This document shows positions 8,495-54,969 of a stretch of 64,000 bases of DNA, piece by piece. A program made the translations under genes and the position numbers. How positions within the stretch are numbered: position 1 is the stretch's first letter; every line of letters starts with the position of its first letter. Origin of the DNA: Massilibacillus massiliensis (lineage in GTDB: Bacteria; Bacillota; Negativicutes; FLKF01); contig NZ_LT575483.1 of assembly GCF_900086705.1 (NCBI RefSeq), positions 2,741,189 through 2,805,188 on the forward strand. The letters are read 5' to 3'. Under the pieces are notes generated by a model. It saw only the letters and a list, made by a program, of their open reading frames with translations, did not search any database and was not told the DNA's origin.

Positions 8495-8584
8495 AAAGTA
8501 TCACTCTCCTTATACTAGCTCATAGTTTAGATCGGCCAAAATAACTGCGGCTTGTTCATGGTGAATATCAACTATTTTACTTAT

Positions 8585-9427: not shown

Positions 9428-9455
9428 AAATAGTCAAAATCCTCTCTCATATGAT

Positions 9456-30700: not shown

Positions 30701-30788
30701 GGAGAGGTGTCCGAGTGGTCGAAGGTGATTGACTCGAAATCAATTGTACCGCAAGGTACCGAGGGTTCGAATCCCTCCCTCTCTGCCA
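30701..30788 (+). tRNA. tRNA-Ser (anticodon CGA)
   Basis: 88 nt with long variable arm and encoded CCA. Acceptor GGAGAGG/CCTCTCT (G-U at the end), anticodon stem ATTGA/TCAAT with loop CTCGAAA (CGA reads UCG), variable stem GTACC/GGTAC, T arm GAGGG TTCGAAT CCCTC. A tyrosine integrase gene ends 140 bp downstream, so its 3' half is the probable phage attachment site. Confidence 0.95.
30761..30788. other. probable attL (3' end of tRNA-Ser)
   Basis: The T arm to CCA segment of tRNA-Ser next to the integrase. Integration at tRNA 3' ends leaves the tRNA intact and duplicates part of its 3' end at the other junction, which is outside this window, so the exact core cannot be defined. Confidence 0.6.
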
Positions 30789-30799
30789 TTAGTAAATTC

Positions 30800-33195: not shown

Positions 33196-33348
33196 ATTCT
33201 ATCCTATTAGGATAATTAATTCAATATCCTCATAGGGTGAAAATAGGCGATAATAGCACCTATTAGGAGAAAAATGAAGGCTTAGGGTTATAATTATCCT
33301 TATTGGGCTAATTTGCTCGTTGAATTAATATCCTTATAGGGTTAATAT
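33196..33348. promoter_or_regulatory. lysis-lysogeny switch: five operators and two facing promoters
   Basis: Perfect dyad TATCCTATTAGGATA at 33200-33214, and variants at 33225-33239, 33256-33270, 33295-33309 and 33329-33343. Repressor promoter (minus): TTGAAT (33224-33219) N17 TAGAAT (33201-33196), its spacer filled by the perfect dyad. Early promoter (plus): TTGAAT (33320-33325) N17 TAATAT (33343-33348), spacer filled by the last operator. A partial sixth site (CCAATAGGAG) lies at 33367-33376. The two promoters share an identical -35 hexamer. Confidence 0.85.
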
Positions 33349-40305: not shown

Positions 40306-41640
40306 ATGATCAAAGATATAGAAATTTCAAGAATTCATCCTCACTATGACAATCCTCGCAAAGACCTTGGAGACCTTACCGAACTTGCAGAGAGTATAAA
40401 AATTAACGGAATTCTTCAGAACCTCACAGTTGTACCTTGGTTTTCAAAAATCACTGGTGTTGGTGCTGATGATCCTAAACAACAAGAAGAACTTGGATAT
40501 ATTGCTGTTATCGGTCACCGTCGTCTTGCAGCAGCGGAACTTGCCGGATTAACAAAAGTGCCATGCAATATATCAGATATGAGTTATCGTAAACAAATTT
40601 CTACTATGCTGCTTGAAAATATGCAACGAAGCGACTTAACAATATATGAACAAGCACAAGGATTTCAGATGATGCTTGACCTCGGAGAATCCGTTAATGA
40701 CATATCTAAAAACACTGGTTTTTCGGAATCTACCGTTCGTCGCAGAGTGAAACTCCTAGAGTTTGATAAAGAAAAATTCAAGGAATCAGTTGAGCGTGGC
40801 GGTACCTTAATGGACTATGCAGAGCTGGATAAGATTCAAGACATCAAAACTCGTAATAAGGTTCTTGAGAAAATCGGAACACCAAATTTTAAATGGGAGC
40901 TGAAAGATGCCATAGATAAAGAGACAAGTAAGAAAAATAAGGCATTGATAATTGCTGAACTCGAAAAATTCGCAACGAAAGTGGAAAAAATTAATGGCTT
41001 AAGCTATGTACAATCATTTTACTTATTTCAACAACCTGAAATTGTTATACCAAACGATATTGATACTGTCGAATATTTTTACTGCATTAATGGATCAAGC
41101 TATATATATTTATACAAAAAAAGTGAAGACGAAAAACCGCAAGCTGATCAAGCTTTGCTTGACGAACGAAGAAAACATGACGAACACCGCGCAGCCCTAA
41201 TTAAAGTTTCAAAACAAGCATATCAACTTCGAAGCGATTTTATTAAAACTGTTTCTAACACCACAGCAAAGAAAAATCTACATGTCATAATTGAGTATTT
41301 ATTATTGGCTACATTAAATGATAATTACTATGTTGCTGAATTTGAAGACCTTGCTAATTTTCTTGGTCTTGAAATAAATGAAGATGATGAACAAAATCTT
41401 ATTAATAACATCAAATCTCTTATTATTGCCCAACCTGAACGACACCTGTTAATATCGACTTATTTAACACTTGATTCAGAACAAGCAAATTATTATAACT
41501 GGAGCAATCAGTATGTTGAAAATGAAATACTCAACACAGTATACGATTTCCTTGCGAAGCTTGGTTATGAAATATCTGAAGAAGAAAGTTCACTGCGCAA
41601 CGGTACGCATGGACTATTCGTAAATATAGAGGACAAATAA
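40306..41640 (+). CDS. ParB/Spo0J-family protein
   Basis: 444 residues. The N-terminal ParB domain has IHPHYDNPRKDLGDLTELAESI and GHRRLAAAELAG, followed by a HTH (DISKNTGFSESTVRRRVKLLE) around residue 140. Phages often carry ParB-like CTPase/nuclease-like proteins in the early region with no ParA. The C-terminal half is long and specific. Stop is followed at once by the next ATG. Confidence 0.85.
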   Translation: MIKDIEISRIHPHYDNPRKDLGDLTELAESIKINGILQNLTVVPWFSKITGVGADDPKQQEELGYIAVIGHRRLAAAELAGLTKVPCNISDMSYRKQISTMLLENMQRSDLTIYEQAQGFQMMLDLGESVNDISKNTGFSESTVRRRVKLLEFDKEKFKESVERGGTLMDYAELDKIQDIKTRNKVLEKIGTPNFKWELKDAIDKETSKKNKALIIAELEKFATKVEKINGLSYVQSFYLFQQPEIVIPNDIDTVEYFYCINGSSYIYLYKKSEDEKPQADQALLDERRKHDEHRAALIKVSKQAYQLRSDFIKTVSNTTAKKNLHVIIEYLLLATLNDNYYVAEFEDLANFLGLEINEDDEQNLINNIKSLIIAQPERHLLISTYLTLDSEQANYYNWSNQYVENEILNTVYDFLAKLGYEISEEESSLRNGTHGLFVNIEDK

Positions 41641-43884
41641 ATGGACAACCATAAACATGATTTACTCCCATTACTCGAATATATTGATCCTTCAAACCTT
41701 TCATATCAAGAATGGGTGAATGTTGGCATGGCACTCAAAGAAGAAGGTTTTACGGCAGCTGATTGGGATAATTGGAGTAAAAGAGATTTTTCTCGTTATC
41801 GTGCCGGTGAATGTTTCAAAAAATGGACAACTTTCCAAGGTACGACAAAGCCCGTGACAGCTGGAACTATAGTGGATATGGCGAAAACCGGAGGTTGGAA
41901 ACCAACTGGCGGCGGTACAGAGCTTGCCTGGGATGATATTATCGGTGGCAGTAAAGATGATATGGTCCTGGTTGATAAAAACTGGATTGAAGGCAGGGAA
42001 GTAACAGAACCACAAAAATGGGATCCAATTAAAGATCTGGTTACCTATCTTGAAACTCTGTTTGATAGTACTGAAAATGTTGGCTATGTAACAACCTCTT
42101 GGGAGAAAGAAGGTAAGTATTTACCGACAAAGGGAAACTGGGCGCGTACAGCCGGTGAACTCATTGAAGAATTAAATATTTGTGATGGTGATATCGGTGC
42201 TGTTCTTGGAGATTATAAGCCAGAATGTGGCGCATGGATCCGGTTCAATCCACTTGATGGACAGGGCTGTAAAAATGATAATGTAACAGATTTTCGTTAT
42301 GCACTCGTAGAATCTGACTGTATGGAAATTGATAAGCAAAATGAGATCATCCGCACATTAGAACTACCGGTAGCATGCCTCGTACATAGTGGCGGTAAAA
42401 GCCTGCATGCAATAGTTCGCGTCGATGCTGCAGATAAAAATGAATACCGTAAAAGAGTCGATTACCTATATGCAGTCTGTCAAAAGAATGGTCTTGAAAT
42501 CGACAGTCAAAACCGTAATCCCTCGAGACTATCCAGGATGCCAGGCGTCATTCGCAAAGGGCATAAACAGTGGTTGGTAGATAGCAATATAGGGAAAGCA
42601 AACTTCGTTGAGTGGCAGGAATGGATAGAAGCTATCAATGATGATTTACCAGAGCCTGAAAGCATGGCCGATGCCTGGGACAACCTTCCTGAGCTTGCAC
42701 CATCACTAATTCATGGAATCCTTCGTCAAGGACACAAATTATTGATTGCTGGTCCATCTAAAGCAGGTAAATCCTTTGCATTGATAGAGCTATGTTGCGC
42801 GATTGCCGAAGGTATGAAATGGCTGTCTTGGAATTGCGCCCAGGGCAAAGTATTATATGTGAATCTTGAGCTTGATAGAGCAAGCTGTCTGCATCGTTTC
42901 AAAGATGTATATCAGTCGCTTAAATGGGAACCGAAAAATGTTGGTAATATTGATATTTGGAATTTGCGCGGTAAATCTATACCAATGGACAAGCTGGCAC
43001 CAAAACTCATACGTAGAGCTGCAAAGAAAAATTATATGGCCATTATCATTGATCCAATTTACAAAGTCATTACTGGTGATGAAAACAGCGCTGATCAGAT
43101 GGCAAACTTCTGCAATCAATTCGATAAAGTGTGTACAGAACTTGGCTGCGCGGTAATTTATTGTCATCATCATTCAAAAGGAGCCCAAGGTGGTAAAAGG
43201 TCAATGGACAGGGCTAGCGGCAGCGGTGTATTCGCTCGTGATCCAGATGCCCTGCTTGATTTAATTGAACTCGATATTACCGATGCATTACTTAAACAGG
43301 AAGAAAATAAAGCTGTTTGTGCGGCTTGTATGGATTACCTTGAGCAGAAATATCCAACATGGGAAGACGATGTTTCACAAGATGATCAGTGCAGTGAAAA
43401 AGCGATGCTTGATTATTGTAAAAAAGTTTTACCAATAGAATCTTATACAACACTCACAAATAATTTCGTATACAGAGCAAGGCAGAAAGTACAACAGCGC
43501 ACCGCATGGCGCATTGAAGGAACATTAAGAGAGTTCCCTAAGTTCTCACCAGTCAATCTGTGGTTTGATTATCCGGTGCACCATGTAGATAGGATTGGTG
43601 TTTTAAAAGATGTGGAAGCCGATAGTGAGCAGCCTTCATGGAAAAAGAATTTTAAGAAGAAAAAAACACCGGAAGATAGTAAAAAAGATCGTAAAATTGC
43701 GATAGAAAATGCAATCGAAGCAACTAAATTTGGTGGTACTCCAACGCTTAAAAGTATGGCGGAATATATGGGCGTAACGGAAAAGACTGTAAAAAATCAT
43801 CTGAAAGAGCATGGGGGATATACCGTAGCACATAATGGTGAAGTCTTTAAATTAACTAAAAATGGGAATATGGAAACCGCATAG
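41641..43884 (+). CDS. phage primase-helicase (PriCT-2, primase-like, RepA-type AAA)
   Basis: 747 residues, the largest early protein. Residues about 12-90 match the PriCT-2 primase C-terminal domain; about 130-300 contain SGGKSLHAIVRVDA and VESDCMEID as in primase-type domains; about 355-560 form a RepA-like ATPase with Walker A AGPSKAGKSFA near residue 370 and Walker B IIIDPIYK; the C-terminus has a HTH (MAEYMGVTEKTVKNHL). It would load at the phage origin. The gene is immediately followed by the tandem hairpin array. Confidence 0.87.
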   Translation: MDNHKHDLLPLLEYIDPSNLSYQEWVNVGMALKEEGFTAADWDNWSKRDFSRYRAGECFKKWTTFQGTTKPVTAGTIVDMAKTGGWKPTGGGTELAWDDIIGGSKDDMVLVDKNWIEGREVTEPQKWDPIKDLVTYLETLFDSTENVGYVTTSWEKEGKYLPTKGNWARTAGELIEELNICDGDIGAVLGDYKPECGAWIRFNPLDGQGCKNDNVTDFRYALVESDCMEIDKQNEIIRTLELPVACLVHSGGKSLHAIVRVDAADKNEYRKRVDYLYAVCQKNGLEIDSQNRNPSRLSRMPGVIRKGHKQWLVDSNIGKANFVEWQEWIEAINDDLPEPESMADAWDNLPELAPSLIHGILRQGHKLLIAGPSKAGKSFALIELCCAIAEGMKWLSWNCAQGKVLYVNLELDRASCLHRFKDVYQSLKWEPKNVGNIDIWNLRGKSIPMDKLAPKLIRRAAKKNYMAIIIDPIYKVITGDENSADQMANFCNQFDKVCTELGCAVIYCHHHSKGAQGGKRSMDRASGSGVFARDPDALLDLIELDITDALLKQEENKAVCAACMDYLEQKYPTWEDDVSQDDQCSEKAMLDYCKKVLPIESYTTLTNNFVYRARQKVQQRTAWRIEGTLREFPKFSPVNLWFDYPVHHVDRIGVLKDVEADSEQPSWKKNFKKKKTPEDSKKDRKIAIENAIEATKFGGTPTLKSMAEYMGVTEKTVKNHLKEHGGYTVAHNGEVFKLTKNGNMETA

Positions 43885-44154
43885 AAACGGAAAAACTCGA
43901 TGATTTTCCGTTTCTTCCAAAATGGAAAAAGTCGAACAGTGCTTCGAGATTTTCCATTTTGGAAGGAAGAAAAACGTCGAGTTTTTCCACTTTCCAAATC
44001 GGAAGAAAAAGTCGGTGAATTTTCGAGTTTTTCCGAATCGGAAGAAAACCCATATATATAAATATATGTTTGGTGATTTTCCGCCCTACGGTCAAGGGGA
44101 AAAAATAGTCGTGCGTTAGCTTTCGCACGACGACTACTTTTCCCTTTCCTTGAC
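43884..44154. repeat. array of five or six tandem stem-loops after the primase-helicase
   Basis: Successive hairpins: GAAACGGAAAA/TTTTCCGTTTC (43884-43894, 43904-43914); a perfect 15-bp stem TTCCAAAATGGAAAA / TTTTCCATTTTGGAA (43915-43929, 43950-43964) whose loop has an inner TCGAA/TTCGA stem; a 12-of-15 stem at 43961-43975 / 43981-43995; TTCCAAATCGG...GTCG / CGAG...CGAATCGGAA (43992-44013, 44024-44043); an AT-rich unit with ATATATAAATATA (44053-44065); and a long stem GTCAAGG...GTCGTGCG / CGCACGA...CTTGAC (44091-44115, 44124-44154). Units share GGAARAAAAnGTCGA. Candidate origin with an AT-rich unwinding element, or a structured RNA/attenuator. Confidence 0.85.
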
Positions 44155-44186
44155 TAAAAATTTTTTCTTGAAGGGAATGGATTAAA

Positions 44187-44414
44187 TTGTCAAAAAGAAA
44201 CAGAAGCAAAATAATGGAAGTTGCAAAATTTATGCCACCACTCAGACATTCGATTCCTGATCAGGAGTTTGATGTTCGAAATAGTGAAGTTTTAAATTGG
44301 CTGGTCAAACAACCAGAAATTTTGAATTATGTTTGGAACAATATAAAAAGCTCTGGTGCGATTATCTATGATCAAAGAGCAGGAAGATGGATGGGGATAA
44401 ATCATGATGATTGA
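44187..44414 (+). CDS. hypothetical phage protein
   Basis: 75 residues from TTG 44187 (AAGGGA upstream, spacing about 10) or a shorter form from ATG 44214. RNSEVLNWLVKQPEILNYVWNNIKSSG then a short tail. Not recognised. Its 3' end overlaps the RusA gene by 11 bases. Confidence 0.6.
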   Translation: MSKRNRSKIMEVAKFMPPLRHSIPDQEFDVRNSEVLNWLVKQPEILNYVWNNIKSSGAIIYDQRAGRWMGINHDD

Positions 44415-44796
44415 ATTCTTTCTGCCAATGGTCCCTCCAACCGTAACTCATCAGGAAAAGAAAGTAACGGTGGTGAATGGTAAACCTGTATTTTATGAGC
44501 CGCCAGAGCTTAAGGACGCCCGCCAAAAGCTTACTGCATACTTAGCAAAGTATATCCCTAAGAAGAAGCACTGTGGAGCTGTCAGGCTGGTAACGAAGTG
44601 GTGTTACCCAAAGGGATCACATAATAACGGTGAGTATAAGACAACTAAGCCTGATACGGATAATATGATTAAGCTGCTAAAGGACGTAATGACGGAGCTA
44701 AAGTTTTGGAAAGATGATGCTTTGGTGGCAAGTGAGATAACTGAAAAGTTTTGGGCTGATGTCCCTGGGATATATGTTCGGATTGAGAAGTTGTAG
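44404..44796 (+). CDS. rusA: RusA-like Holliday-junction endonuclease
   Basis: 130 residues. EFFLPMVPPTVTHQEKKV at the start, then TKPDTDNMIKLLKDVM and WKDDALV carrying the Asp triad of RusA. Resolves recombination intermediates during phage replication. Also ATG 44407 possible. Confidence 0.88.
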   Translation: MMIEFFLPMVPPTVTHQEKKVTVVNGKPVFYEPPELKDARQKLTAYLAKYIPKKKHCGAVRLVTKWCYPKGSHNNGEYKTTKPDTDNMIKLLKDVMTELKFWKDDALVASEITEKFWADVPGIYVRIEKL

Positions 44797-44808
44797 GGAG
44801 GACTCACA

Positions 44809-45039
44809 ATGATAAAAACGATAACAGCAGAAGTTGATATTGATCTTGAAGATTACCTTGAGGAATTTGACGACCTTGAACTTATTACAGAGCTGCGTGA
44901 TCGTGGCTATACAGTACTAGAAAATGAAGAGCATGTTAGTAAAACAATCGAAGCTGATATTCGTGGCTGTAAGATCAAGGCCAATGGCGAAACGTTTGAG
45001 TTTGATGGTCTGACGACGATTGTTGTGTATGATAAATAA
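44809..45039 (+). CDS. hypothetical acidic phage protein
   Basis: 76 residues; GAGGACTCACAATG start context has GGAGGACT. Acidic, EVDIDLEDYLEEFDDLELITELRDRGY then a beta-rich C-terminal half. Common small-gene position downstream of rusA. No assignment. Confidence 0.6.
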   Translation: MIKTITAEVDIDLEDYLEEFDDLELITELRDRGYTVLENEEHVSKTIEADIRGCKIKANGETFEFDGLTTIVVYDK

Positions 45040-45081
45040 AAATAAGACCGCTACACGAGCGGCCTTTGGGAGAGGATAAAA

Positions 45082-45297
45082 ATGAAATATTGTGAAGAAT
45101 CGATAGAGAAGTTGATTGAGTATATATCATCCGATAATGAGAGAGGTTTTTGTCCATCAAGAATAGGGTTAAAAGAGCCTAATTAAAAAATTAGTTGGAC
45201 TACAAGTAGTTGTATCTCACTTAGTTGTAAAGACTGCTGGAAACAAGCATTGGCAGGTAATACCCATAAAACAACTCAAACAATCGAGGAGGACTAA
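45082..45297 (+). pseudogene. small cysteine-containing phage gene interrupted by an in-frame TAA
   Basis: ATG 45082 opens 34 codons (MKYCEESIEK... ERGFCPSRIGLKEPN) ending at TAA 45184-45186. The same frame continues without interruption for 36 more codons to TAA 45295-45297, encoding SWTTSSCISLSCKDCWKQAL. The two halves look like one protein of the type FCPSxIGL...CKDCWKxAL seen in phage early genes (from memory), so a single nonsense change is the likely cause. Sequencing error or readthrough are alternatives. Confidence 0.6.
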
Positions 45298-45299
45298 CC

Positions 45300-45551
45300 A
45301 TGATACCCAATGAACGTTTAGACGAAATGATAAAAACAGCAAAATTATTTGCTGACATCTCATGCGGCTTGGAGCTGAATGGGTTGAAAGCTAAAGATAT
45401 TTATGCAGCGTTTGTAGAGCTTAAAGAGTTGCGGGAGATCGCGAAAACTAACGTATTTCAATTAAGGTCAGTATCAGAAGAACAGATAAAGAGTATTGCG
45501 AATTTAATTAATCAATCGCCTTCGCAATTACGAGTATTACAGGAGGAATGA
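45300..45551 (+). CDS. hypothetical phage protein
   Basis: 83 residues, GAGGAGGACTAACC upstream of ATG 45300; all-helical (ERLDEMIKTAKLFADI, EEQIKSIANLINQSPSQLRVLQ). The stop overlaps the upstream ATG of the next gene. No family recognised. Confidence 0.6.
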   Translation: MIPNERLDEMIKTAKLFADISCGLELNGLKAKDIYAAFVELKELREIAKTNVFQLRSVSEEQIKSIANLINQSPSQLRVLQEE

Positions 45552-45553
45552 TT

Positions 45554-45877
45554 ATGGCACCAATGACATGCTCAGATTGTATGAGACGTGGTAAAGTAGT
45601 ATTTATGGTTTATAGTCGCAAGAGCAAGCATTACATATGTCCTGATTGTACAGGCGTTTTTACGCCAATACCGAAAGATGACGACTATGCTGCTAATGCA
45701 ACGAAAAATGAAGTAATGGAACTGATGTATGGCATGTATAAAGCAAATCTCCCGCCCAAGGAGCCCATCCCCGCTGGCGGACCATTAAAAGGTGGCGGCG
45801 GTAGTAAATCTAAAGGACAAAGTAAAAAAGGGCTTATGAAAAAGAAATCGTTAAGTCAACTCTACAGAGAATTATAA
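45554..45877 (+). CDS. small zinc-ribbon protein with glycine-rich tail
   Basis: 107 residues from ATG 45554 (AGGAGGAATG immediately upstream; the ATG at 45548 overlaps that site). CSDCMRRGKVVF and YICPDCTG form two CxxC pairs; the C-terminal region is GGPLKGGGGSKSKGQSKKG then a basic tail. Could bind nucleic acid. Last gene of the early-middle block; followed by AT-rich spacer. Confidence 0.65.
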   Translation: MAPMTCSDCMRRGKVVFMVYSRKSKHYICPDCTGVFTPIPKDDDYAANATKNEVMELMYGMYKANLPPKEPIPAGGPLKGGGGSKSKGQSKKGLMKKKSLSQLYREL

Positions 45878-45924
45878 AAAAATTTAGTAGAAGTTGAAAA
45901 AGTAACACACATTGAAAAATTTAT

Positions 45925-45932
45925 GATATAAT
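45925..45932 (+). promoter_or_regulatory. extended -10 promoter of the cargo gene
   Basis: TGATATAAT-type extended -10 (TATAAT 45927-45932); no good -35. Identical core to the promoters at 30677 and 58989. Confidence 0.5.
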
Positions 45933-45969
45933 GAGAATTGTAGGTGTACCTACTCAATAGTTAAATTTT

Positions 45970-45999
45970 AGTCGCCGGCAAGTTTGTCGGCGACTTTTT
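45970..45999 (+). terminator. hairpin upstream of the cargo membrane gene (terminator/attenuator-like)
   Basis: AGTCGCCGGCA / TGTCGGCGACT with 4-base loop and T-run, lying between the -10 box (45927) and ATG 46016. Its place in the leader suggests it ends upstream transcription or attenuates the cargo gene. GTAGGTGTACCTAC (45940-45953) just upstream is a further palindrome. Confidence 0.65.
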
Positions 46000-46015
46000 A
46001 ATTAGGGGTGTATTT

Positions 46016-46360
46016 ATGAAGTTGTTGGAAGATAAAGATATAAATTTAGAAAAGCTTTATGATTGGTGTGATACTGTACCCCAAAAAGAACGAATTATAC
46101 AATGTGCGCAATTAAAATCTGAGGTAGAAATCTCGTCTGATGTATTAAAAACTATTAATGCGAGATTGGGGATAGCACTTGGTATTATAAATATTATCAT
46201 AGGATATGTTCTTAGTGAATATAAATGGGTAGTTGCATGTGCCATAATATTATCTTCAATATACTTTTTTTACAAACTTAATGAAATGGAAAATAAACTT
46301 CATATTTTACGAAAAAAAGGACTGGAGTGTATAATGATTATGGAATCATTTAACAAATAA
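46016..46360 (+). CDS. small membrane protein of the cargo patch
   Basis: 114 residues. N-terminal soluble helix (to about residue 50), then two membrane spans (LGIALGIINIIIGYVL and WVVACAIILSSIYFFY) and a C-terminal coiled tail. Not recognised. Own promoter and terminator: a moron-type unit, possibly superinfection-related (inference from position only). Confidence 0.65.
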   Translation: MKLLEDKDINLEKLYDWCDTVPQKERIIQCAQLKSEVEISSDVLKTINARLGIALGIINIIIGYVLSEYKWVVACAIILSSIYFFYKLNEMENKLHILRKKGLECIMIMESFNK

Positions 46361-46372
46361 TAATAAACATTT

Positions 46373-46399
46373 AAGCCGTTCTTAACTGGACGGCTTTTT
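46373..46399 (+). terminator. terminator of the cargo membrane gene
   Basis: AAGCCGTTC / GGACGGCTT (46373-46381, 46388-46396) with loop TTAACT (one G-U pair) and T-run. The last codons of the converging minus-strand gene overlap it. Confidence 0.7.
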
Positions 46400-46684
46400 C
46401 TTATGTGAAGGTTTAGAAAATCTGTAGATAATGAATGCAAGAAAAGCGAAGGCATGCGTGATAAATATGCTTTGACCATGTAGCCTGCTAAAATACCAAA
46501 TAAAAGCATACGTTTCTTTTACTTTCCCATGATCTTTTAAATAATAATGACCGTCAGATGCGAAGCCTTGTAGGGCATCTCCACCAAGAAGGAGAGATAT
46601 TATGACAAACGATGCAAAATTTATAAGTGCAACTTTAAATATCTTTTTGCAGATACGTTGTGTTTTAGTTAATTCTTCTTCCAT
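46382..46684 (-). CDS. small membrane protein (minus strand) of the cargo patch
   Basis: 100 residues from ATG 46684 (AAGGTGG 6 bases upstream); the longer ORF to 46738 has no better start. Two hydrophobic segments (KIFKVALINFASFVIISLLLG and SIFITHAFAFLAFIIYRF). Lies opposite to the surrounding operon, so is probably expressed in the lysogen. Function unknown. Confidence 0.65.
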   Translation of the reverse strand: MEEELTKTQRICKKIFKVALINFASFVIISLLLGGDALQGFASDGHYYLKDHGKVKETYAFIWYFSRLHGQSIFITHAFAFLAFIIYRFSKPSHKKKPSS

Positions 46685-46823
46685 AGTTACCACCTTGGAA
46701 ATAAATGTAAATATTATATATTTGACATGCTTTTTCAAAACTCCTTTTTCTTATAATATTTGGCAGGAATATGTTTCCTTTTATCGAAGTGTGTAGTAAT
46801 TTGGTAAAAGGAGATGGCGCGTA

Positions 46824-47543
46824 GTGGAATATGGCTATCCTAAGTTCCCAACAGACGAGGCTTTTAGTGAAATTGCTGTAAAAATATTTCCTTTACAAAG
46901 CTTTAAACAAGTCATAAGTGAAATTAGGAGTAATAAAAAGGTTGATATTTGGGGGTGCTTTTTAAATGGAAAGGATGCTGTAGATTGGACTATTATTCTG
47001 AGTAATAAAATATCTCAAATTCAGTTAAGTTATCCATGTGCATACCATTATGCCGAGAAATTTAATGATGATGTTTGGCATAGAAATAATGAAGAAGAAG
47101 GATGCATTGAATATTTCCCGTATACTCAAAAAGAAGCACTAAATAAAGCAATGTTCGATTTTTTTGCTTATACGTGTTTTTCTGTTGTTTTTTCAGCATT
47201 CGATATTATAGGCCAAGTGGTAAATGGTGAATATAAATTAGGATTCGCTATTACAGATGTTAGCTTTAATAAAATTGTTTGCCCAAAGTTGGAAAATATA
47301 AATAAAAATTTATTTGATACACTTAACAAAATTAAAAAAGGCGATAAATTTGAAAGTGTTAAGTTAAGACATAGTTTTATACATCGTATTCCACCAACAG
47401 AGTTAATCGCTTTTGCTGTTAAGGATAAAGGAAATGTAAAAAGCTTAACTGTAGGTAAATATGTGACTTCAAAAGAAATTATGGAATGCATGAAAGAAGC
47501 AATTGATTGCTTACTTGAAACACTAAATGCAATTAAAAATTAA
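46824..47543 (+). CDS. HEPN-like protein of the cargo patch
   Basis: 239 residues from GTG 46824 (AAAGGAGAT upstream). I recognise a Cthe_2314-type HEPN outline: a helical body and the R-x4-H motif LRHSFIHRIPP at residues 182-187, the catalytic motif of HEPN RNases. The N-terminal half has no clear domain. HEPN proteins act as RNases in toxin-antitoxin and anti-phage systems; no partner gene (e.g. MNT) is adjacent. Between own-strand terminators, unlike the late genes in style. The family call is moderate, since only the motif and helical context support it. Confidence 0.5.
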   Translation: MEYGYPKFPTDEAFSEIAVKIFPLQSFKQVISEIRSNKKVDIWGCFLNGKDAVDWTIILSNKISQIQLSYPCAYHYAEKFNDDVWHRNNEEEGCIEYFPYTQKEALNKAMFDFFAYTCFSVVFSAFDIIGQVVNGEYKLGFAITDVSFNKIVCPKLENINKNLFDTLNKIKKGDKFESVKLRHSFIHRIPPTELIAFAVKDKGNVKSLTVGKYVTSKEIMECMKEAIDCLLETLNAIKN

Positions 47544-47551
47544 AGTTTTCC

Positions 47552-47577
47552 AAAACGCCTCTCCCCGAGGCGTTTTT
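47552..47577 (+). terminator. terminator of the HEPN-like gene
   Basis: Perfect AAAACGCCTC / GAGGCGTTTT stem (47552-47561, 47567-47576) with loop TCCCC and T-run. Confidence 0.9.
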
Positions 47578-47606
47578 CTTATGCCCAAAATCAAGGAGGT
47601 GACACA

Positions 47607-47795
47607 ATGCTCTTACACTGTAATAACCAAAATTGCAAATACAATGACAATCAAACATGTACTGCTGATAAGGTGTTTTACGTTGACAGGCTTTGTGTCA
47701 CGTTCCGAAAACGACCCAGGCATACAAACTATCGTGACATGATGAAAACGCCGTTTAGTCCACGTTGTAGGTGCGAGCGAGAACGGCAAATATAA
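47607..47795 (+). CDS. small DUF1540-like cysteine-rich protein
   Basis: 62 residues from ATG 47607 behind AAGGAGGTGACACA. HCNNQNCKYNDNQTCTADKVFYVDRLC is a Cys-spaced core similar to the DUF1540 group (conserved short metal-binding peptides in low-GC bacteria). Phage-associated; function unknown. Confidence 0.65.
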   Translation: MLLHCNNQNCKYNDNQTCTADKVFYVDRLCVTFRKRPRHTNYRDMMKTPFSPRCRCERERQI

Positions 47796-47914
47796 ATCGA
47801 ATAACGGTACTGTTTTGAAGTGAAATAACAAGCTAATAAATATACAAGCAGATTAATCTGTAAAATCTTGATGCTTTATTCACGATATGCAATTTAAATC
47901 GTATAAATCTATCA

Positions 47915-47990
47915 AAAATCAAGCTAAAATGCTTGTTTTTGTGTATAAAATTGATTTCAACTATCGATAGCCATAATTTATCAATAGTTG
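47915..47990. other. spacer hairpins before the terminase genes
   Basis: CAAGC TAAAAT GCTTG (47921-47936) flanked by A and T runs, terminator-like; then an inverted repeat CAACTATCGATA (47958-47969) / TATCAATAGTTG (47979-47990) with one mismatch, 30 bp before the small terminase. The latter could be a packaging recognition site or a late-gene regulator site. No gene in 47796-48020. Confidence 0.45.
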
Positions 47991-48020
47991 ATGATATTTA
48001 GGGAGTTGGTGATCATGTAG

Positions 48021-48848
48021 ATGACAGTAATAAATGAGCAAGCAGAAAAAGCAAGAGCCGATTACATAGCAGGGATGAAATATAAAGATATCGCTGAAAA
48101 ATACGGTGTCAGTATCAATACCGTGAAGTCCTGGCAAAAACGTCATAAGTGGACCAGAGAGGGTGCACCCAAAACAGAAAAAGGGTGCACCCCAGATAAA
48201 AAAGCAGGTGCACCAAAAGGCAATCGCAATGCTGCTGGTCATGGCGCCCCTGTTGGTAACAAGAATGCTGTCGGTAATAACGGTGGCCCGCCCAAACGAA
48301 ATAAAAATGCTGTGACTACTGGTGAGTTTGAAACAATATGGCTAGATTGCCTTGACGATGACGAACAGGTAATGTATGAAAAAATTGATACAGATGAGCT
48401 TGTCCAAACCGAAGAGGCTATCAGGTTATTAACACTTCGTGAAAGACGAATGCTTAAAAGAATTCAAGATCTTATGAACGGTTTATCCGAAAAAGCTCGC
48501 TCAGTATTTATGGTTAGTAAAGATAAAAAAGAAATCATTCAAGTGTATGATGAAAAAACAGGTAAAATGAGAGAGATAAGTGTAAACAAACCTGTGATGG
48601 ACATAGAGTCAATTAGTGAAACTGAGTGTCGTAAGATTGATGATATTTTAAAACTTGAAGAAGCATTGACCAGGATACAGGATAAGAAGACGAAGCAATT
48701 ACAATTAAAACATGATTTAGAAATTGATAAACAGAAACTTCTGATTGAGCAACAAAAATTAGAAATCTATAAAACAAAAAACAGTGGTGCAAGTAAGGAT
48801 GAGCCAATCAATATTACGATCAAGCGCAAGGTGAAAACCGATGATTGA
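48021..48848 (+). CDS. terS: terminase small subunit
   Basis: 275 residues. N-terminal HTH ([39 protein letters not shown]), followed by the repeated [32 protein letters not shown] segment typical of PBSX/YqaS-type small terminases, then a coiled-coil end. Recognises phage DNA for packaging. Its 3' end overlaps the large subunit start by 8 bases. Confidence 0.9.
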
Positions 48849-50124
48849 AGTAGAAAAAGAAGTAAATCCACATTTTGAAGATTTTCTTTTCGATTGGTTA
48901 TACAAATTTTACTTTCTAGTTGGAGGATACGGTTCATCAAAAAGTTATCATGTTGCTTTAAAAATTATCCTAAAATTGCTTGAGGAAAAACGCACTGCGC
49001 TGGTCGTTCGTGAAGTCTATGACACTATACGTGACAGTTGCTTTGCTCTATTTGAAGAAATCATTGTAGATTTAGAATTTGAAGATGAGATTAAAATTGT
49101 AACATCACCGATGCAGATCCGTTTCCCCAATGGCAGCAAGATTATTTTCAAGGGAATGGATAAACCAGCGAAACTAAAATCAATCCATAACGTCAGCATT
49201 GTGTGGATTGAGGAGTGCAGTGAACTGAAATATGCCGGTTTTAAAGAGCTGATCGGGCGGCTACGGCATCCAACATTATCTTTACATATGATTCTTTCTA
49301 CTAATCCTGTTGGCAAATCAAATTGGACTTATAAGCATTTCTTCAAGAATGTAAAAGTAAAAGATGAAGTTCTTTATAAAAAAAGAATTATGGTTATTGG
49401 CAATACGTATTATCATCACTCATTAGCTGATGATAATCTTTTTTTGCCTTACAGCTACATCGAGCAGCTTGAAGAGCTAAAAACATATGACATTGATTTG
49501 TACCGAATTGCTCGTAAGGGGCGGTTTGGTGTAAATGGCACATTAGTATTGCCACAATTTGAAGTGCAGTCAGATAAACGTGTTGAAAATGCGATCAATG
49601 GATTACCAAGCCGCTTTTTTAAAGCCGGCATGGACTTTGGTTTTGAAGAATCTTATAATGCAGTATTACGTATCGCAATCGATGATAAACGTAAATATTT
49701 GTACATCTATTGGGAGTATTATAAAAATAAATGTACAGATGATGTGACTGCATTAGATCTACAGGAATTTGTTGAAACAAAAGAACTGATCAAAGCCGAT
49801 TCAGCAGAGCCTAAAACGATTAAATATTTTAATCAACAGGGTTTTAGGATGTCCGGTGCTAAAAAAGGACCTGCCAGTCGGTTGCAGAACACGAAAAAAG
49901 TTAAGCGCTTTAAGAAAATTATCTGTTCGGCTTGCTGTGAGCACACAATAGAAGAGTTGCAGGATCTAACCTATAAACTGAATAAAGACGGTGAAATTAT
50001 TGAAGATGAATTCAGTATTGATCCGCATACGTTTAGTGCAATATGGTATGCGTTAGATGGTTATGAGGTAGCGAATATTAAAGGATCATATAAAGATTAT
50101 GGCATTCAAACAGGAAAATTCTAA
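48841..50124 (+). CDS. terL: terminase large subunit (PBSX type)
   Basis: 427 residues. Walker A-like [13 protein letters not shown] near residue 23; the nuclease half carries [11 protein letters not shown] and [11 protein letters not shown]. Packages DNA into procapsids and cuts concatemers. Overlaps terS by 8 bases. Confidence 0.93.
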
Positions 50125-50139
50125 GAAAGGAGGATGCTG

Positions 50140-51561
50140 ATGGCTGTAAGAAGAAAACAGGTTAAAAAAGTAAAAAAGCAGATGAGTGAGTATCAAATTG
50201 TTAAACATGCAGCGCCTTTCTTGGGTGATATCTCGGATAAGTATCTGCTGCTCAAAGATGCATATTCCGGGACCGGCGGGTTTGAAGATGGGACATATCT
50301 TGTACCGCATCCGCGTGAACCTCTTGATAAATATGTGCGGCGATGTTTTATGGCTTACTACTGCAATTACACAAAACCCTGCATAGATGCACATGTGAAT
50401 CCGATTTTCAAGGAATATCCTGTACGCAAATATAATGCGAATCCTTTTTTTGATGAATTTTTGAAAAATGTTGATGGGAAAGGAACTAAAATTGACAGGT
50501 ACATGAAACGCACTGCAATTAAGGCTAAATTGTTTGGTTGTGTATTTGGAATTGTAGATAATTACATAGAGCAAGCAAGTGATTTTGAAGAAGCAATTAG
50601 AAATCGTACATTTCCGTATATGTACATTGTTAGGCCGAATCAAATCGAAGACTGGGCAACCGATCAATTTGGGAATATCATGATGTTTAAATATAAGTTA
50701 AGATATACTGAGCTTGTAAATGAAAACAAAATTTCTAAATCGGTTATCTGGACATGGACAAATGATAAATGGATCAAGGTTGATGAACACGGCAGGCAGG
50801 AGGGGGATAATCCAATTGGTATAATTCCTGTAGTTCCTCTGTTTGGGGCATTAAATGATGAGGACGATGATATTACCCCTCAATCAGAATTTTATCCAAT
50901 TGCAAAAACAAACCTCGCTATATTCAATGCTTGTAGTGAGCTTCGGGAACGTAATCGTAACCAGGCCTTTAGTTTACTGACCTATCCGATCGGAGAAGGC
51001 GACGATTATGAAACTGCTAATGAAATCGCTATAGGCACAACAGATATGCTTGTTTACAAAGCCGGTTCTAGTAGAGGTCCAGAGTACATTTCGCCGGATT
51101 CGGCACCAAGTCAGATGCTTTTAGACGAAATCAAAAACATGGTGCAGGAAATATACCGTATGGCTGAACGTGCGAATGTTACCGGCGTACAAGAACAAAC
51201 ATCCGGAATAGCAAAAGAGTGGGACAACCAATCTACCAATCAAACAATTGCAGAGTTCGCGAAAAGTCTTGAAGAATTTGAAGAAAAAATTGCAATCCTT
51301 TTTGGGCGATATATTAATAAAGATCTTGATTATGCTTCGACTTATAATAGTGAATTTGGTGTTGTTGATACCTCAGCGGAGCTTGATAAGGTAACAAAAG
51401 CGCTGATGCTGAACATCGGGGGTAAATTTAATAAAGAAGTTAAGAAACAAGCCGCCCGCGTTGTATTAAATGAGCTTGATGATGATGAGCTTAATGCAAT
51501 TTTGGATGAAATCGATCAGCAGTCCGATGATATAGATTACAGCAAATCTGAGGATGATTAA
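50140..51561 (+). CDS. portal protein (SPP1 gp6-like)
   Basis: 473 residues from ATG 50140 (AAGGAGG six bases upstream; ATG 50134 overlaps the site). DKYVRRCFMAYYCNYTKPCIDAHVNPIF and the C-terminal DELDKVTKALML fit the phage portal family. Forms the dodecameric portal at one capsid vertex. Follows terL by 15 bp. Confidence 0.9.
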   Translation: MAVRRKQVKKVKKQMSEYQIVKHAAPFLGDISDKYLLLKDAYSGTGGFEDGTYLVPHPREPLDKYVRRCFMAYYCNYTKPCIDAHVNPIFKEYPVRKYNANPFFDEFLKNVDGKGTKIDRYMKRTAIKAKLFGCVFGIVDNYIEQASDFEEAIRNRTFPYMYIVRPNQIEDWATDQFGNIMMFKYKLRYTELVNENKISKSVIWTWTNDKWIKVDEHGRQEGDNPIGIIPVVPLFGALNDEDDDITPQSEFYPIAKTNLAIFNACSELRERNRNQAFSLLTYPIGEGDDYETANEIAIGTTDMLVYKAGSSRGPEYISPDSAPSQMLLDEIKNMVQEIYRMAERANVTGVQEQTSGIAKEWDNQSTNQTIAEFAKSLEEFEEKIAILFGRYINKDLDYASTYNSEFGVVDTSAELDKVTKALMLNIGGKFNKEVKKQAARVVLNELDDDELNAILDEIDQQSDDIDYSKSEDD

Positions 51562-51563
51562 AT

Positions 51564-53150
51564 ATGGCTGACTTCAATAAAGATGATTTTCGCGAAGCGG
51601 TCAGAAATATTGTGAAAGGGTACGGATCCAAATACAATACAATAGCAGAAGAGCTTATCAATGTTATTATAAGTAGAATCGAAAAGGGAGAGTTTGTTTC
51701 CGAAGCTGTAGCTGGTGCTTTATCAGATACGGCTTTTTTTAGTGCCAATAAAGCCGAAATTACAAATGCGATGTATCTGGCCGCCTGCTCCGGGTATGGC
51801 GTTCTGCCTTCGATTGTCACAAAAGCCAGTCAGGTAAATATAAAAGATAAGCTTTTATCCGACAGCTGGACTGGCGATAAAATGAACTTGTCCACGCGAT
51901 TGCACGGTACGAATAGCAAAATGAGAGAAACCATAGTTGATACAATTAATTCTAGTATGCTAAACATGCAAAGTGCGCGAGAGATGGCGATGAAGCTTTA
52001 CGACGGCTATAATAGCGGAAACCAAGTAATTCGTGAGGCTAAACTGCCGCAATACCTCGATAATATTCTTCAAAGAATTGACCTTGCGGGTGGCAGTGGT
52101 AAAGTATCTGAAAAATTACGCGGTGAAGCGGAAGCTTTGAAGGCTGCGGTAAAAAATTTAAAAATGCCTGAGCTGCGTACTACGTATAAGAATTTTCTGG
52201 ACGCAGTAACAGCACCAGAATTGAATGCTGCAGTTCTCAATAAAGCAGCCTGGGCAGCAGTGCAGGAAAAAGCACGATATCATGCGATGCGCATTGCTCG
52301 AACCGAATCTGCCAGAGCCTGGTTTGATGGCTTTATAGCTGAAAATCAAGACGACGAAGATGTATGGGGGTACCGGTGGAGATTAAGCAGCCGACATAAA
52401 TTTGTTCCGTTTGATCAATGTGATGTTTGCGCTAATATGAATGTTGGTTATGGCAAAGGCATCTATCCAAAAGGGAAAGTGCCATTTATACCGCGCCATC
52501 CGCATTGCATGTGTATGCTTGAAGTTGTATTTGTTTGGGAGATTGATAAACAAATAAAGTTCAATCCCAATAAAGCTAAAGAATATCTTGATAGTTTGGA
52601 TGTTGGCCAGCAAGCAATGCTATTTGGCTATGACGGTGTAAAGGCATATAAAAGTGGCGCTGACTGGCAAACTATACTTCGTGGTTGGGATGGGTTTAAT
52701 GAACCCGTAAGTAGATTAAGTAAAGCCGATTTTCAGTTGATACTTAATAATGATAATGGTAATATAAAAGAAATAAGAGAATTTATTCGTTCAGAGGCAC
52801 AGCCTAAAAATATTGATAAGGGTAATCAAGATAAACATATTGAAGGAACGAATAATTACAAACAGAAAGTTGCTGGTCTTAGATCTAAAGGTCAATATGG
52901 GCCTAGTAGAGTTGATTTAAATCTTATTGAAATACAGCAGTTAATCGATACGTTTGCCGGAACTGGGGAAATTAGAACACGGAGATCTGGTGAATGGAAT
53001 CACAAAGAAACAATTTATAATAATGATAAAATTGTTGGTTCTGTTGTAAATAATTTAAACGGTAAAGAAGTTACTACTAGTGTTTTTAAAATTCACTATA
53101 GTAAACGAGGAACTCATATAGTTCCGCATTATCCGAAAAAGGAGGAGTAA
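51564..53150 (+). CDS. MuF-type minor head protein with C-terminal toxin-like domain
   Basis: 528 residues. The MuF/SPP1 gp7-type domain (about residues 200-330) ends with CDVCANMNVG and FIPRHPHCMCMLEV, the usual Cys/His zinc core. After about residue 425 the sequence changes to a separate domain: EGTNNYKQKV, LIDTFAGTGEI and IHYSKRGTHIVPHYPK, matching the layout of the Ntox50/BECR-type polymorphic toxins found at the C-termini of MuF proteins. The next gene is a small candidate immunity protein. Head-assembly role is confident; toxin function is inferred. Confidence 0.85.
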   Translation: MADFNKDDFREAVRNIVKGYGSKYNTIAEELINVIISRIEKGEFVSEAVAGALSDTAFFSANKAEITNAMYLAACSGYGVLPSIVTKASQVNIKDKLLSDSWTGDKMNLSTRLHGTNSKMRETIVDTINSSMLNMQSAREMAMKLYDGYNSGNQVIREAKLPQYLDNILQRIDLAGGSGKVSEKLRGEAEALKAAVKNLKMPELRTTYKNFLDAVTAPELNAAVLNKAAWAAVQEKARYHAMRIARTESARAWFDGFIAENQDDEDVWGYRWRLSSRHKFVPFDQCDVCANMNVGYGKGIYPKGKVPFIPRHPHCMCMLEVVFVWEIDKQIKFNPNKAKEYLDSLDVGQQAMLFGYDGVKAYKSGADWQTILRGWDGFNEPVSRLSKADFQLILNNDNGNIKEIREFIRSEAQPKNIDKGNQDKHIEGTNNYKQKVAGLRSKGQYGPSRVDLNLIEIQQLIDTFAGTGEIRTRRSGEWNHKETIYNNDKIVGSVVNNLNGKEVTTSVFKIHYSKRGTHIVPHYPKKEE

Positions 53151-53152
53151 TT

Positions 53153-53377
53153 GTGAAGCATCTTTTAGAGTATTTACATAAAACATTAAAAGTTACATGT
53201 ATTGATGATCAAATCATTGTAGGAGAAGTAACAGATTATACGTGTGCTGATGATAATAAAGATTATCAAGATATTGATTCTGATAGTTTCTCAATATCTC
53301 AAACTACATCGGATGGAGAGCAGTATGGAGTTGAGCTTTATCAGAATGAAATTAAATCAATTGAAATATTAATATAA
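53153..53377 (+). CDS. putative immunity protein of the MuF toxin domain
   Basis: 74 residues from GTG 53153 (GGAGGAG seven bases upstream), 2 bp after the MuF gene. KTLKVTCIDDQIIVGEVTDYT and the acidic loop DDNKDYQDIDSDSFS suggest a small SH3/LSm-like beta barrel. Acidity matches the basic toxin domain, and the position directly downstream followed by a terminator fits an immunity gene. No sequence family is recognised. Confidence 0.55.
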   Translation: MKHLLEYLHKTLKVTCIDDQIIVGEVTDYTCADDNKDYQDIDSDSFSISQTTSDGEQYGVELYQNEIKSIEILI

Positions 53378-53411
53378 AACCACTCACATTTTTTTGCTGA
53401 GTGGTTTTATT
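53376..53411 (+). terminator. terminator after the putative immunity gene
   Basis: AAAACCACTCA (53376-53386) / TGAGTGGTTTT (53398-53408), loop CATTTTTTTGC. It separates the toxin/immunity pair from the scaffold genes. Confidence 0.85.
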
Positions 53412-53520
53412 ATGTCCAAAATTAAATGAGGTGGTGGTGCCATTGATTGCCACAGTTACCGCGAGACATTATTCTTAGCGGTATTTTTTGTATCTATTTT
53501 TAAAAAAGGAGTAGATTTAT

Positions 53521-54237
53521 TTGACAATAGAAGAATTGATCAAGGCATTAGGCCTGGATGAGGCAAATGCAACCGTTTTGAGAAACTTTGTTGCCGCAAA
53601 GGATAAAGCTGTTACAGATAAAGCGGCAGATATCAAAGTTCTAAAAGCCCAAACAAAGGGGGATGCGAGTAAAATTAAAACCCTGCAAGAGAGAGTTGAA
53701 AAATTTCAAGATGCACTTGGTATTGATGATGATACTGAAGATCTTGAAGAAGCAATTAAGGGGATTATGAAAGAAAAAACTGCCGATCCCGCCCTGCAAA
53801 AACAAATTACCAATTTAAAAGAAAAGCTGAGAGTTAAAGACGAAGAGCATAATTCTACTCTATCTGAAGAACGTGGCAAGCGTTTTGATGGCATGAAACG
53901 TACAGCATTACTTGAAGCTTTAGGCAAAAACAATGCGGATGATCCCAATCTTTTGGTTGATATGTTGATTGGGAAGATCGTTGTTAATGAAGATGATGAG
54001 TCACTTGCCTTTAACGATGATAAAAATTCTAAGATTGATGATTATGTAAAAGAATTTTTAACAGCGCATCCGAAATTAATTGCAAATATTCAAAAGCCTG
54101 GCGCAGGAAGTTTACTTGGTGCAAATGGTGGAGCTAGCAATGATAACGAAAGTACAGAATATGCAAAAAAACTGGCCGAAAGTGGTAATTCAAATTCTAC
54201 CGAAAATCAAAAGGCTTTAGAAGGCTATTTTAAATAA
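53521..54237 (+). CDS. phage scaffold protein (gp20-like)
   Basis: 238 residues from TTG 53521 (AAAAGGAG upstream). Long helical, coiled middle (IKTLQERVEKFQDALG, LQKQITNLKEKLRVK) and flexible C-terminal tail, typical of head scaffolding proteins preceding decoration and capsid genes. The 110-base leader (53412-53520) has RBS-like GAGGTGGTGGTG with a TTG-started 11-codon frame and a TACCGC/GCGGTA hairpin with T-run that may attenuate or control entry to the capsid genes. Confidence 0.85.
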   Translation: MTIEELIKALGLDEANATVLRNFVAAKDKAVTDKAADIKVLKAQTKGDASKIKTLQERVEKFQDALGIDDDTEDLEEAIKGIMKEKTADPALQKQITNLKEKLRVKDEEHNSTLSEERGKRFDGMKRTALLEALGKNNADDPNLLVDMLIGKIVVNEDDESLAFNDDKNSKIDDYVKEFLTAHPKLIANIQKPGAGSLLGANGGASNDNESTEYAKKLAESGNSNSTENQKALEGYFK

Positions 54238-54255
54238 TTACGGAGGATATACATA

Positions 54256-54969
54256 ATGAAATTTAAACAAACCAATTATCTTGGGACAAAACAAATTTTA
54301 AAGTTTCCTGATCACAAGGTTGCAATGACTGTAACTGTTAGTGATGAGGGGGTAACTGTGAATGAGGATGGAGAAAAAATTGTAGAAGCAGGTACGATTG
54401 TTAGTGGCGGAGGCGTGCTGCTTGATCCAAGCAAAGCTGTCTCTGATGTAAACTTAGGCGCAAAGGCAGCCAGTTTTACAACAACTTTTACTACAGAAAA
54501 CAGTAATCTTACTTTTGTAGCGAAAGAAAAAGGGGTAGATGGAAATTCCATTAAAGTCGCTTTCGTTGCACCAACTACAGCTAGTCAGGAATTGAGTGTT
54601 TCTGTAGCAAGTAATGTTATTACTGTAAATCTTGCGACTGATGAAACAAAAACGGTAACGACAGTTGCTGATGATGTTATTGCGATTATCTTAGAAAATA
54701 CTGAAGCACAAGACTTAGTTGATGTAATGACAGCGGACGGTAATAGTGGAAGTGGCACAGTGTCCGCTTTGGTCGCCACTGCTTTAGCTGGCGGTACTGC
54801 AGGTGCTGGCGGAGTCGCAGAAGGTGTTCTTGAAAACGATGTTGACGTAACTTATGGTCCAGCTCTTGGTGCAATGCTTGTACATGGTTTTATTGATATA
54901 AAGAAAATGCCGATTGAGCCAACAACGGCGGATATCGAGGCATTAAAACAAATTACATTTTTAGGTTAA
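54256..54969 (+). CDS. capsid decoration protein with inserted Ig/adhesin-like domain
   Basis: 237 residues. N-terminal (to about residue 65) and C-terminal (from about residue 190, PALGAMLVHGFIDIKKMPIEPT) parts resemble head decoration proteins; the middle is Thr/Ser/Val-rich beta-sandwich sequence (FTTTFTTENSNLTFVAKEKGVDGNSI), a likely inserted Ig-like surface domain. Lies between scaffold and capsid. Confidence 0.65.
   Translation: MKFKQTNYLGTKQILKFPDHKVAMTVTVSDEGVTVNEDGEKIVEAGTIVSGGGVLLDPSKAVSDVNLGAKAASFTTTFTTENSNLTFVAKEKGVDGNSIKVAFVAPTTASQELSVSVASNVITVNLATDETKTVTTVADDVIAIILENTEAQDLVDVMTADGNSGSGTVSALVATALAGGTAGAGGVAEGVLENDVDVTYGPALGAMLVHGFIDIKKMPIEPTTADIEALKQITFLG

Follow-up and report, generated by a model that had tools for sequence, protein, structure and literature searches.

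An exchangeable cargo slot with a HEPN_Cthe2314 protein, a probable antiviral RNase, before the terminase genes of a Massilibacillus massiliensis prophage

The DNA analysed here (the window) is a stretch of 64,000 nucleotides from Massilibacillus massiliensis contig NZ_LT575483.1 and contains the left part of a prophage. A length of about 54.8 kb was obtained for this prophage from 64-bp exact repeats, located at both of its ends by a script run on flanking genome stretches. An IMG/VR viral contig is 100% identical to the window in two overlapping compared stretches within 40824-54845. The segment of interest, 45878-47606, carries a HEPN gene located at the junction of the early and late genes; the repressor-operator region, where CI-operator-like sites cluster at 33201-33340, is about 13 kb away. 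The metagenomic relative IMGVR_UViG_3300033481_000147 (hereafter L138) was used for close comparison. The relevant features are listed below in window coordinates.

30732..30795, + strand: left attachment repeat in tRNA-Ser (exact-repeat script; tRNA-Ser from ARAGORN)
30928-32013: integrase at the left end of the prophage (phrog_1, E 3.6e-58)
45548..45877, + strand: left anchor gene, the last early gene, encoding a Zn-ribbon CxxC...CxxC protein with a Lys-rich tail
45904..45953, + strand: extended -10 promoter TGATATAAT (45924-45932) with the 14-bp palindrome GTAGGTGTACCTAC (45940-45953), conserved in L138
45970..45995, + strand: intrinsic terminator before the start codon of membrane protein 1 (terminator scan; fold analysis)
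46016-46360, + strand: small membrane protein 1, 114 aa (ORF and hydropathy scan)
46365..46411, + strand: terminator island (fold z -5.6), also in L138 at 8411-8459 and 8882-8924
46382-46684, - strand: small membrane protein 2, 100 aa (ORF and hydropathy scan)
46762..46817, + strand: HEPN 5' leader with a 16-bp hairpin (arms 46773-46788 and 46800-46815) pairing the Shine-Dalgarno AAGGAG at 46808-46813
46771..46824, + strand: possible 17-codon leader ORF MFPFIEVCSNLVKGDGA across the hairpin, its stop overlapping the HEPN GTG by one base
46824..47543, + strand: HEPN protein, 239 aa, HEPN_Cthe2314 family (PF18730), motif R182-HSFI-H187
about 47552-47573, + strand: intrinsic terminator 3' of HEPN (fold z -5.2), its 3' side retained in L138
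47607..47795, + strand: right anchor gene, 62 aa, weakly DUF1540-like (L138 homolog at 10506-10718)
48021..50124, + strand: terminase small (phrog_1889) and large subunits, start of the late module (Pfam and PHROGs matches)
85438-85501 (window-equivalent, beyond the window end): second exact copy of the attachment repeat

The sequence-only reading had described the segment as a cargo patch of three units in mixed orientation, each with its own promoters and terminators, within a single-direction operon. The layout was recovered as described: a membrane protein on the plus strand is followed by another on the minus strand and by the HEPN protein on the plus strand, while the neighbouring early and late genes are on the plus strand. 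The terminators also hold, as 8 terminator-like sites were counted in 45000-48600 vs 1.5 +/- 1.2 in shuffles. The promoter part of the claim does not: promoter-like sites are at chance level (15 vs 15.7 +/- 3.8 expected) and the notion of a promoter for each unit was dropped. By reading, the only convincing promoter of the slot is the extended -10 element at 45924-45932. Hairpins followed by T-runs were detected by the terminator scan at 45970-45995 and 46373-46396. The former lies between this promoter and the first membrane gene, which is therefore placed behind an attenuator rather than simply under its own promoter. The latter is a common terminator region for the two convergent membrane genes and extends over the stop codon of the one on the minus strand. 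The terminator following HEPN originates from the fold analysis and is missing from the list produced by the terminator-like-site scan. Upstream of HEPN, TTGACA and TATAAT both occur in perfect form, but with a spacing of 24 nt; neither the promoter-site scan nor reading revealed a convincing HEPN promoter, and for the HEPN gene and the minus-strand gene promoter-like sites do not exceed chance. The slot contains no CI-operator-like site (search for ATCCTNATWGG with up to 1 mismatch), so that expression of its genes in the lysogen is allowed and plausible. Repression of the slot by CI was considered and rejected, the operator-like sites clustering in the region mentioned above.

In each membrane protein, one helix comes from the hydropathy scan and a second was recognised by reading. 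No Pfam match over cut-off and no PADLOC match was obtained for membrane protein 1, and no family match in Pfam, PHROGs or PADLOC for membrane protein 2. Their own copy is the sole viral match of both proteins, which are best read as separate orphan cargo. The G+C content of the slot (31% vs 38% in the flanking prophage) would fit recent acquisition, and the slot DNA has no match in named phages or plasmids. Outside the slot, a small Cys-containing early ORF of 34 codons (45082-45297) ends at an in-frame TAA (45184-45186), past which the frame stays open for 36 further codons with more Cys residues; it is probably a broken gene.

The boundaries of the slot are defined by L138, which aligns to the window at 45300-45436 (79.6%), 45472-45966 (78.3%) and 47569-47877 (80.3%), and in terS at 48198-48734 (83.2%). 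Its anchors lie at 7992-8318 on the left, encoding a protein 77% identical to the left anchor protein, and at 10506-10718 on the right, where the DUF1540 match of the window protein stays below the Pfam cut-off. Between them, L138 carries three unrelated proteins of 122, 290 and 181 aa, for which no Pfam match and just one weak PADLOC match were found. Because the content is exchanged between both anchors, the limits first drawn around the patch turn out to be almost exactly those of the slot. Elements between the anchors are nevertheless shared: the terminator island is 84% and 80% identical to its two copies in L138. Eight further anchored loci (L149-L156) also differ in content, one of them (L153) having almost no cargo. 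As a separate observation, the 290-aa protein of L138 and the multi-helix 181-aa membrane protein form a pair (8999-10422) with a Kiwa-like layout; the pair has no family matches and may be regarded as a candidate new defence pair.

A wider comparison was anchored on terS. Loci were read in 70 of 80 cases, the own copy and 9 loci with little upstream DNA being excluded, and removal of near-duplicates left 59 distinct relatives in addition to the window. The region upstream of terS in this set encodes 258 proteins falling into 189 clusters, 152 of which are singletons, and none of the window genes upstream of terS has a relative among the 59. These relatives are distant, and the early region is therefore mosaic as a whole; the exact exchange observed in L138 is stronger evidence for a slot than the wider set. 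From the upstream proteins of the relatives, 42 slot proteins were hand-picked by length and position, leaving out a conserved regulator-like cluster. Pfam identified AbiH, Abi_alpha, CAP12-type TIR, KwaB, SIR2_2, SocA/Panacea, PIN and DUF4062 (two) among them, and PADLOC found AbiH and several candidate systems. Abi_alpha is encoded on the opposite strand 258 nt before terS in L014; SIR2_2 (L070), SocA (L052) and AbiH (L065) each lie in the slot region, and KwaB has a KwaA-like neighbour in L054. A control, 42 proteins drawn at random from 68 that lie further upstream, was dominated by families of replication, recombination and regulation; among the 25 families displayed out of 33, the exceptions were single matches to a HicB-like family, Cas6 and a methylase. 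The proposal that this is a cargo patch suited to morons or defence genes is thus strongly supported by the same flanks with different content in L138 and by the known defence families in the slots of relatives. The contrary expectation, that all relatives carry the same genes, is not borne out by the gene content of related prophages.

The HEPN-like call made from the sequence was confirmed by Pfam: the protein matches PF18730 with an E of 5.3e-20 and 72.6 bits, against a curated cut-off of 27.1 bits, and the match covers positions 1-167 of the 174 in the model. The RX4-6H catalytic motif of the HEPN superfamily is intact, in the form RX4H, and R182 and H187 are invariant in 10/10 and 11/11 family members in two alignments. 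The motif reads RH in the slot protein and RN in all 10 aligned relatives. An AlphaFold2 model built from 11 sequences is mainly helical, with a pLDDT of 71.8 that is low around the motif. The five best VIA fold matches (4nqf, two MntA-HepT entries, the sacsin HEPN and SO_3166-SO_3165) are all HEPN proteins with Z from 8.4 to 7.8, barely above unrelated helical bundles, whose range also includes a Z of about 8. Foldseek returned no PDB match for the model at E <= 0.001, and with the protein sequence no match was found in the PDB or PADLOC and nothing useful in PHROGs. The protein was also considered as a homolog of the phage defence protein Tha and rejected, as there is no similarity: the best local match is 25% over 53 aa, the E of 0.16 against Tha-1 applies to one comparison only, and Tha-1 itself reaches no Pfam cut-off.

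Members of the family are sparse: PF18730 exceeds its cut-off in 2/300 genomes of the class and in 10/398 of the phylum, the own genome being included in both counts. The only match in a named phage is in Bacillus phage Goe11, a Spbetavirus. Members precede the terminase in two other phage types, lying antisense in Paenibacillus ottowii (L123), about 2.7 kb ahead of a terS from another family, and directly 5' of an HNH nuclease, terS and terL in L131, where the terminases belong to yet other families. These two HEPN proteins are 58.6% identical over 249 aa despite the different terminase families, and alignments of their terminases with those of the window are short or absent. The Paenibacillus ottowii contig NZ_VIJZ01000002.1 carries a second HEPN-bearing prophage region (L129) about 60 kb from the first; the regions are identical over the compared 2.8 kb and represent either a duplicated prophage or an assembly artefact.

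Elsewhere, a HEPN_Cthe2314 gene adjoins Cas4, Cas2, Cas1 and a two-repeat CRISPR-like array (L108, G414:C6, 3614-6728), or lies within about 1.2 kb of AbiH (L110). A few kb from other members are type I methylase or specificity (RM) genes (L112, L126), a KAP NTPase (L127) and a resolvase (L125). All five PF18730-matching genomes of family f57 (L102-L106) share a syntenic chromosomal copy adjoining a transporter operon and heme/thioredoxin-type genes. Because of these copies, some members of the family may have a housekeeping role, and the f57 branch is perhaps domesticated and non-defensive. The available text of a 2013 survey (PMC3710099) gives 'Yes' for the active site and 'None detected' for associations in its Cthe_2314 table row, and the other mention of a Cthe_2314 HEPN in the literature sections surveyed concerns a genomic island of Staphylococcus chromogenes. 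Those sections report no member of the family as a tested defence gene.

The 56 nt located 5' of the HEPN gene are 91% identical in L138, above the identity of the flanking genes, yet precede an unrelated gene there. The hairpin folds at -15.9 kcal/mol in the window and -16.3 kcal/mol in L138 (z -6.2 and -5.8, respectively) and is absent elsewhere in the host, in the other 379 of the 380 class genomes and in other viral contigs. The leader ORF MFPFIEVCSNLVKGDGA is 81% identical in L138 over 16 residues, which is no more than suggestive of an alternative or additional reading of the hairpin leader; with two sequences compared, either an RNA or a peptide function may apply. In L138 the frame continues upstream, to a length of 47 codons, and this single frame (8374-8514) runs through the palindrome, the terminator and the hairpin leader without a stop. 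A protein family for the 47-codon ORF was sought and discarded, as no relative was found in phages or plasmids beyond one match with an E of 7.

A second conserved element precedes the slot. A script rule calling a promoter and then a terminator around and at most 160 nt after the anchor stop was applied to ten anchored loci (the window, L138 and L149-L156). Both elements follow the Zn-ribbon gene in 7/10, vs 0-1 of 500 shuffles for each locus. The implied leader RNAs measure 52-61 nt in six of these loci; that of the seventh has 87 nt. L150 is missed by the strict rule, its promoter being present and its terminator seen by eye, and L154 and L155 have the terminator only, followed by opposite-strand genes. 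The 14-bp palindrome stands at about +1 in both the window and L138. The leader looks conditional. The consensus RNA structure of eight leaders consists of the terminator stem only, with negligible covariation. Two candidate explanations were set aside: a known RNA family, since three sub-threshold Rfam matches were far below gathering scores, and a host-wide regulatory motif, the palindrome occurring in the genome once exactly and once with 1 mismatch. Just after the leader terminator and ahead of the cargo, L149-L152 and L156 show a short GCAGGA or GGAGGA motif, followed in some by TTTCC. The longer form of this motif displays no clear enrichment in the host genome, where GGCAGGA..TCGAA occurs 6 times vs 4 for the reversed control. 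Homologs of the Zn-ribbon protein are present in 7/380 class genomes, own included, and in none of 50,697 phage records; its Pfam and PHROGs searches gave no match to an antiterminator model.

Taken together, 45878-47606 is interpreted, with a probability of about two thirds, as an exchangeable temperate-phage cargo slot in which a single-gene antiviral RNase, the HEPN_Cthe2314 protein, is the principal cargo, accompanied by the separate orphan membrane proteins. The comparisons show the limits of the slot, the exchange of its content, the family of the HEPN protein and the conservation of the leader elements; we infer the RNase activity of the HEPN protein, its trigger and the timing of its expression. 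An antiviral RNase is the likeliest role because of the exchangeable content, the defence genes in the slots of relatives, the neighbourhoods of the family and the precedents of Tha and Tab. Counting against it are the lack of a family member tested for defence in the literature sections surveyed, the missing PADLOC match, the syntenic f57 copies, the RH in place of RN in the motif, the Foldseek and VIA outcomes and the lack of a convincing HEPN promoter. By analogy with Tha, the HEPN dimer would stay inactive until infection by another phage and, once activated, would cut RNA via its RX4H site, stopping both phage and host. As the HEPN ribosome-binding site is sequestered in a hairpin and the slot lies behind the leader, read-through from upstream should yield little HEPN protein, which would limit self-harm once the prophage goes lytic.

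Three other roles were weighed. The slot genes could be lytic accessories, expressed by read-through from the late-type promoter after antitermination, with the HEPN protein trimming host or early phage RNA late in infection. This would account for the recurrence of the leader directly ahead of the slot in most anchored loci, for the position before terS and for the strand that HEPN shares with the late genes, but the wholesale swap in L138 and the known defence genes of relatives argue against it, the Shine-Dalgarno hairpin would block translation from the read-through RNA and one slot gene opposes the direction of the late operon; we consider this role unlikely. It is quite unlikely that HEPN and one or both membrane proteins constitute one HEPN-TM-like system, in which a membrane protein senses or executes and HEPN cuts RNA. 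Terminators separate the transcription units, a small membrane gene is missing next to most of the other family members examined and the membrane proteins lack viral relatives besides their own copy, even though the genes are adjacent within a single 1.7-kb slot and genes with 2 and 3 predicted helices lie directly upstream of HEPN in L110 and L112, respectively. Finally, HEPN could be an addiction toxin stabilising the prophage, the antidote being either one of the small membrane proteins or the leader RNA. HEPN toxins with antitoxins are known, HepT-MntA being among the fold matches; the strong hairpin holds translation down and a small minus-strand gene is divergent to HEPN. Such a role is nevertheless highly improbable, as no antitoxin-like neighbour recurs at the members examined and an integrated prophage scarcely needs an addiction module.

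The antiviral reading can be extended to a broader model, which we regard as speculative and rather doubtful. The slot would be an expression platform, with the Zn-ribbon protein as a Q-like antiterminator acting, in a family of phages of this bacterial class, on the terminated leader of about 55 nt behind its own gene. Swappable cargo would be inserted just downstream, behind the conserved hairpin or leader-ORF gate, and remain silent on read-through RNA; any defence gene could thereby be swapped in without poisoning the lytic cycle of the phage, and the Cthe_2314 HEPN proteins would form a new family of phage-borne, single-gene antiviral RNases that use slots of this type. With cargo slots of phages and defence neighbourhoods as its context, the HEPN family becomes directly testable for function, and a slot defined precisely on two sides is a place to search related prophages for new defence genes. 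Should the leader and the hairpin act as gates, they would illustrate one way for a prophage to carry a dangerous RNase and yet replicate.

Several known systems share elements with this locus. In lambda late antitermination, the promoter pR' is followed by the terminator tR', and Q is encoded just upstream. A promoter closely followed by an intrinsic terminator is likewise found at the early/late junction here, whereas no known Q or antiterminator family is encoded upstream. In the HEPN-TM systems of phage satellites, the HEPN gene forms an operon with a membrane-protein gene; the membrane genes neighbouring the slot HEPN are antisense or separated by a terminator.

In T4-like phages, hairpins silence inserted genes on read-through RNA, and those gating homing endonuclease genes hide the ribosome-binding site of the cargo on long transcripts, as the HEPN hairpin would (relevant passages of PMC2988022). 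A late promoter beside the endonuclease gene yields hairpin-free RNA in T4, unlike the present locus, where reading revealed no T4-style promoter inside the hairpin recognisable in both phages. According to the available sections of PMC11087260, the HEPN protein Tha is a defence that S. aureus phage 80alpha encodes as a prophage; like the slot HEPN, it is a prophage-borne single protein with an RX4H motif and an antisense gene nearby; in both cases the phage must avoid self-harm at induction. Tha lies in the cI operon next to the integrase, with ith antisense, whereas the slot HEPN precedes the terminase. The Tab/anti-Tab moron of P. aeruginosa phage JBD26, as presented in the accessible portion of PMC10884400, has its own promoter on the opposite strand of the late module and is likewise a defence moron beside terminase genes; the 83-residue Tab, encoded between terS and terL, blocks tail assembly, whereas the candidate here is a HEPN RNase upstream of terS. 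In relation to the survey cited above (PMC3710099, available text), the slot protein is a full-length HEPN_Cthe2314 member with both R and H conserved, and the family, given without associations there, is found here repeatedly in the slots of phages and next to CRISPR, AbiH and RM genes. Searches for a defence slot before terS gave, in the literature sections covered, no description of this one. A general counterpart is provided by the P2/P4 defence hotspots (sections of PMC9122126), with their fixed flanks and exchangeable antiviral cargo. Conserved flanks around exchanged content are found in L138, the other anchored loci differ in content and known defence families occur in the slots of relatives, while the phages and the position differ, the present slot being located at the early/late junction before terS, behind a promoter-terminator leader.
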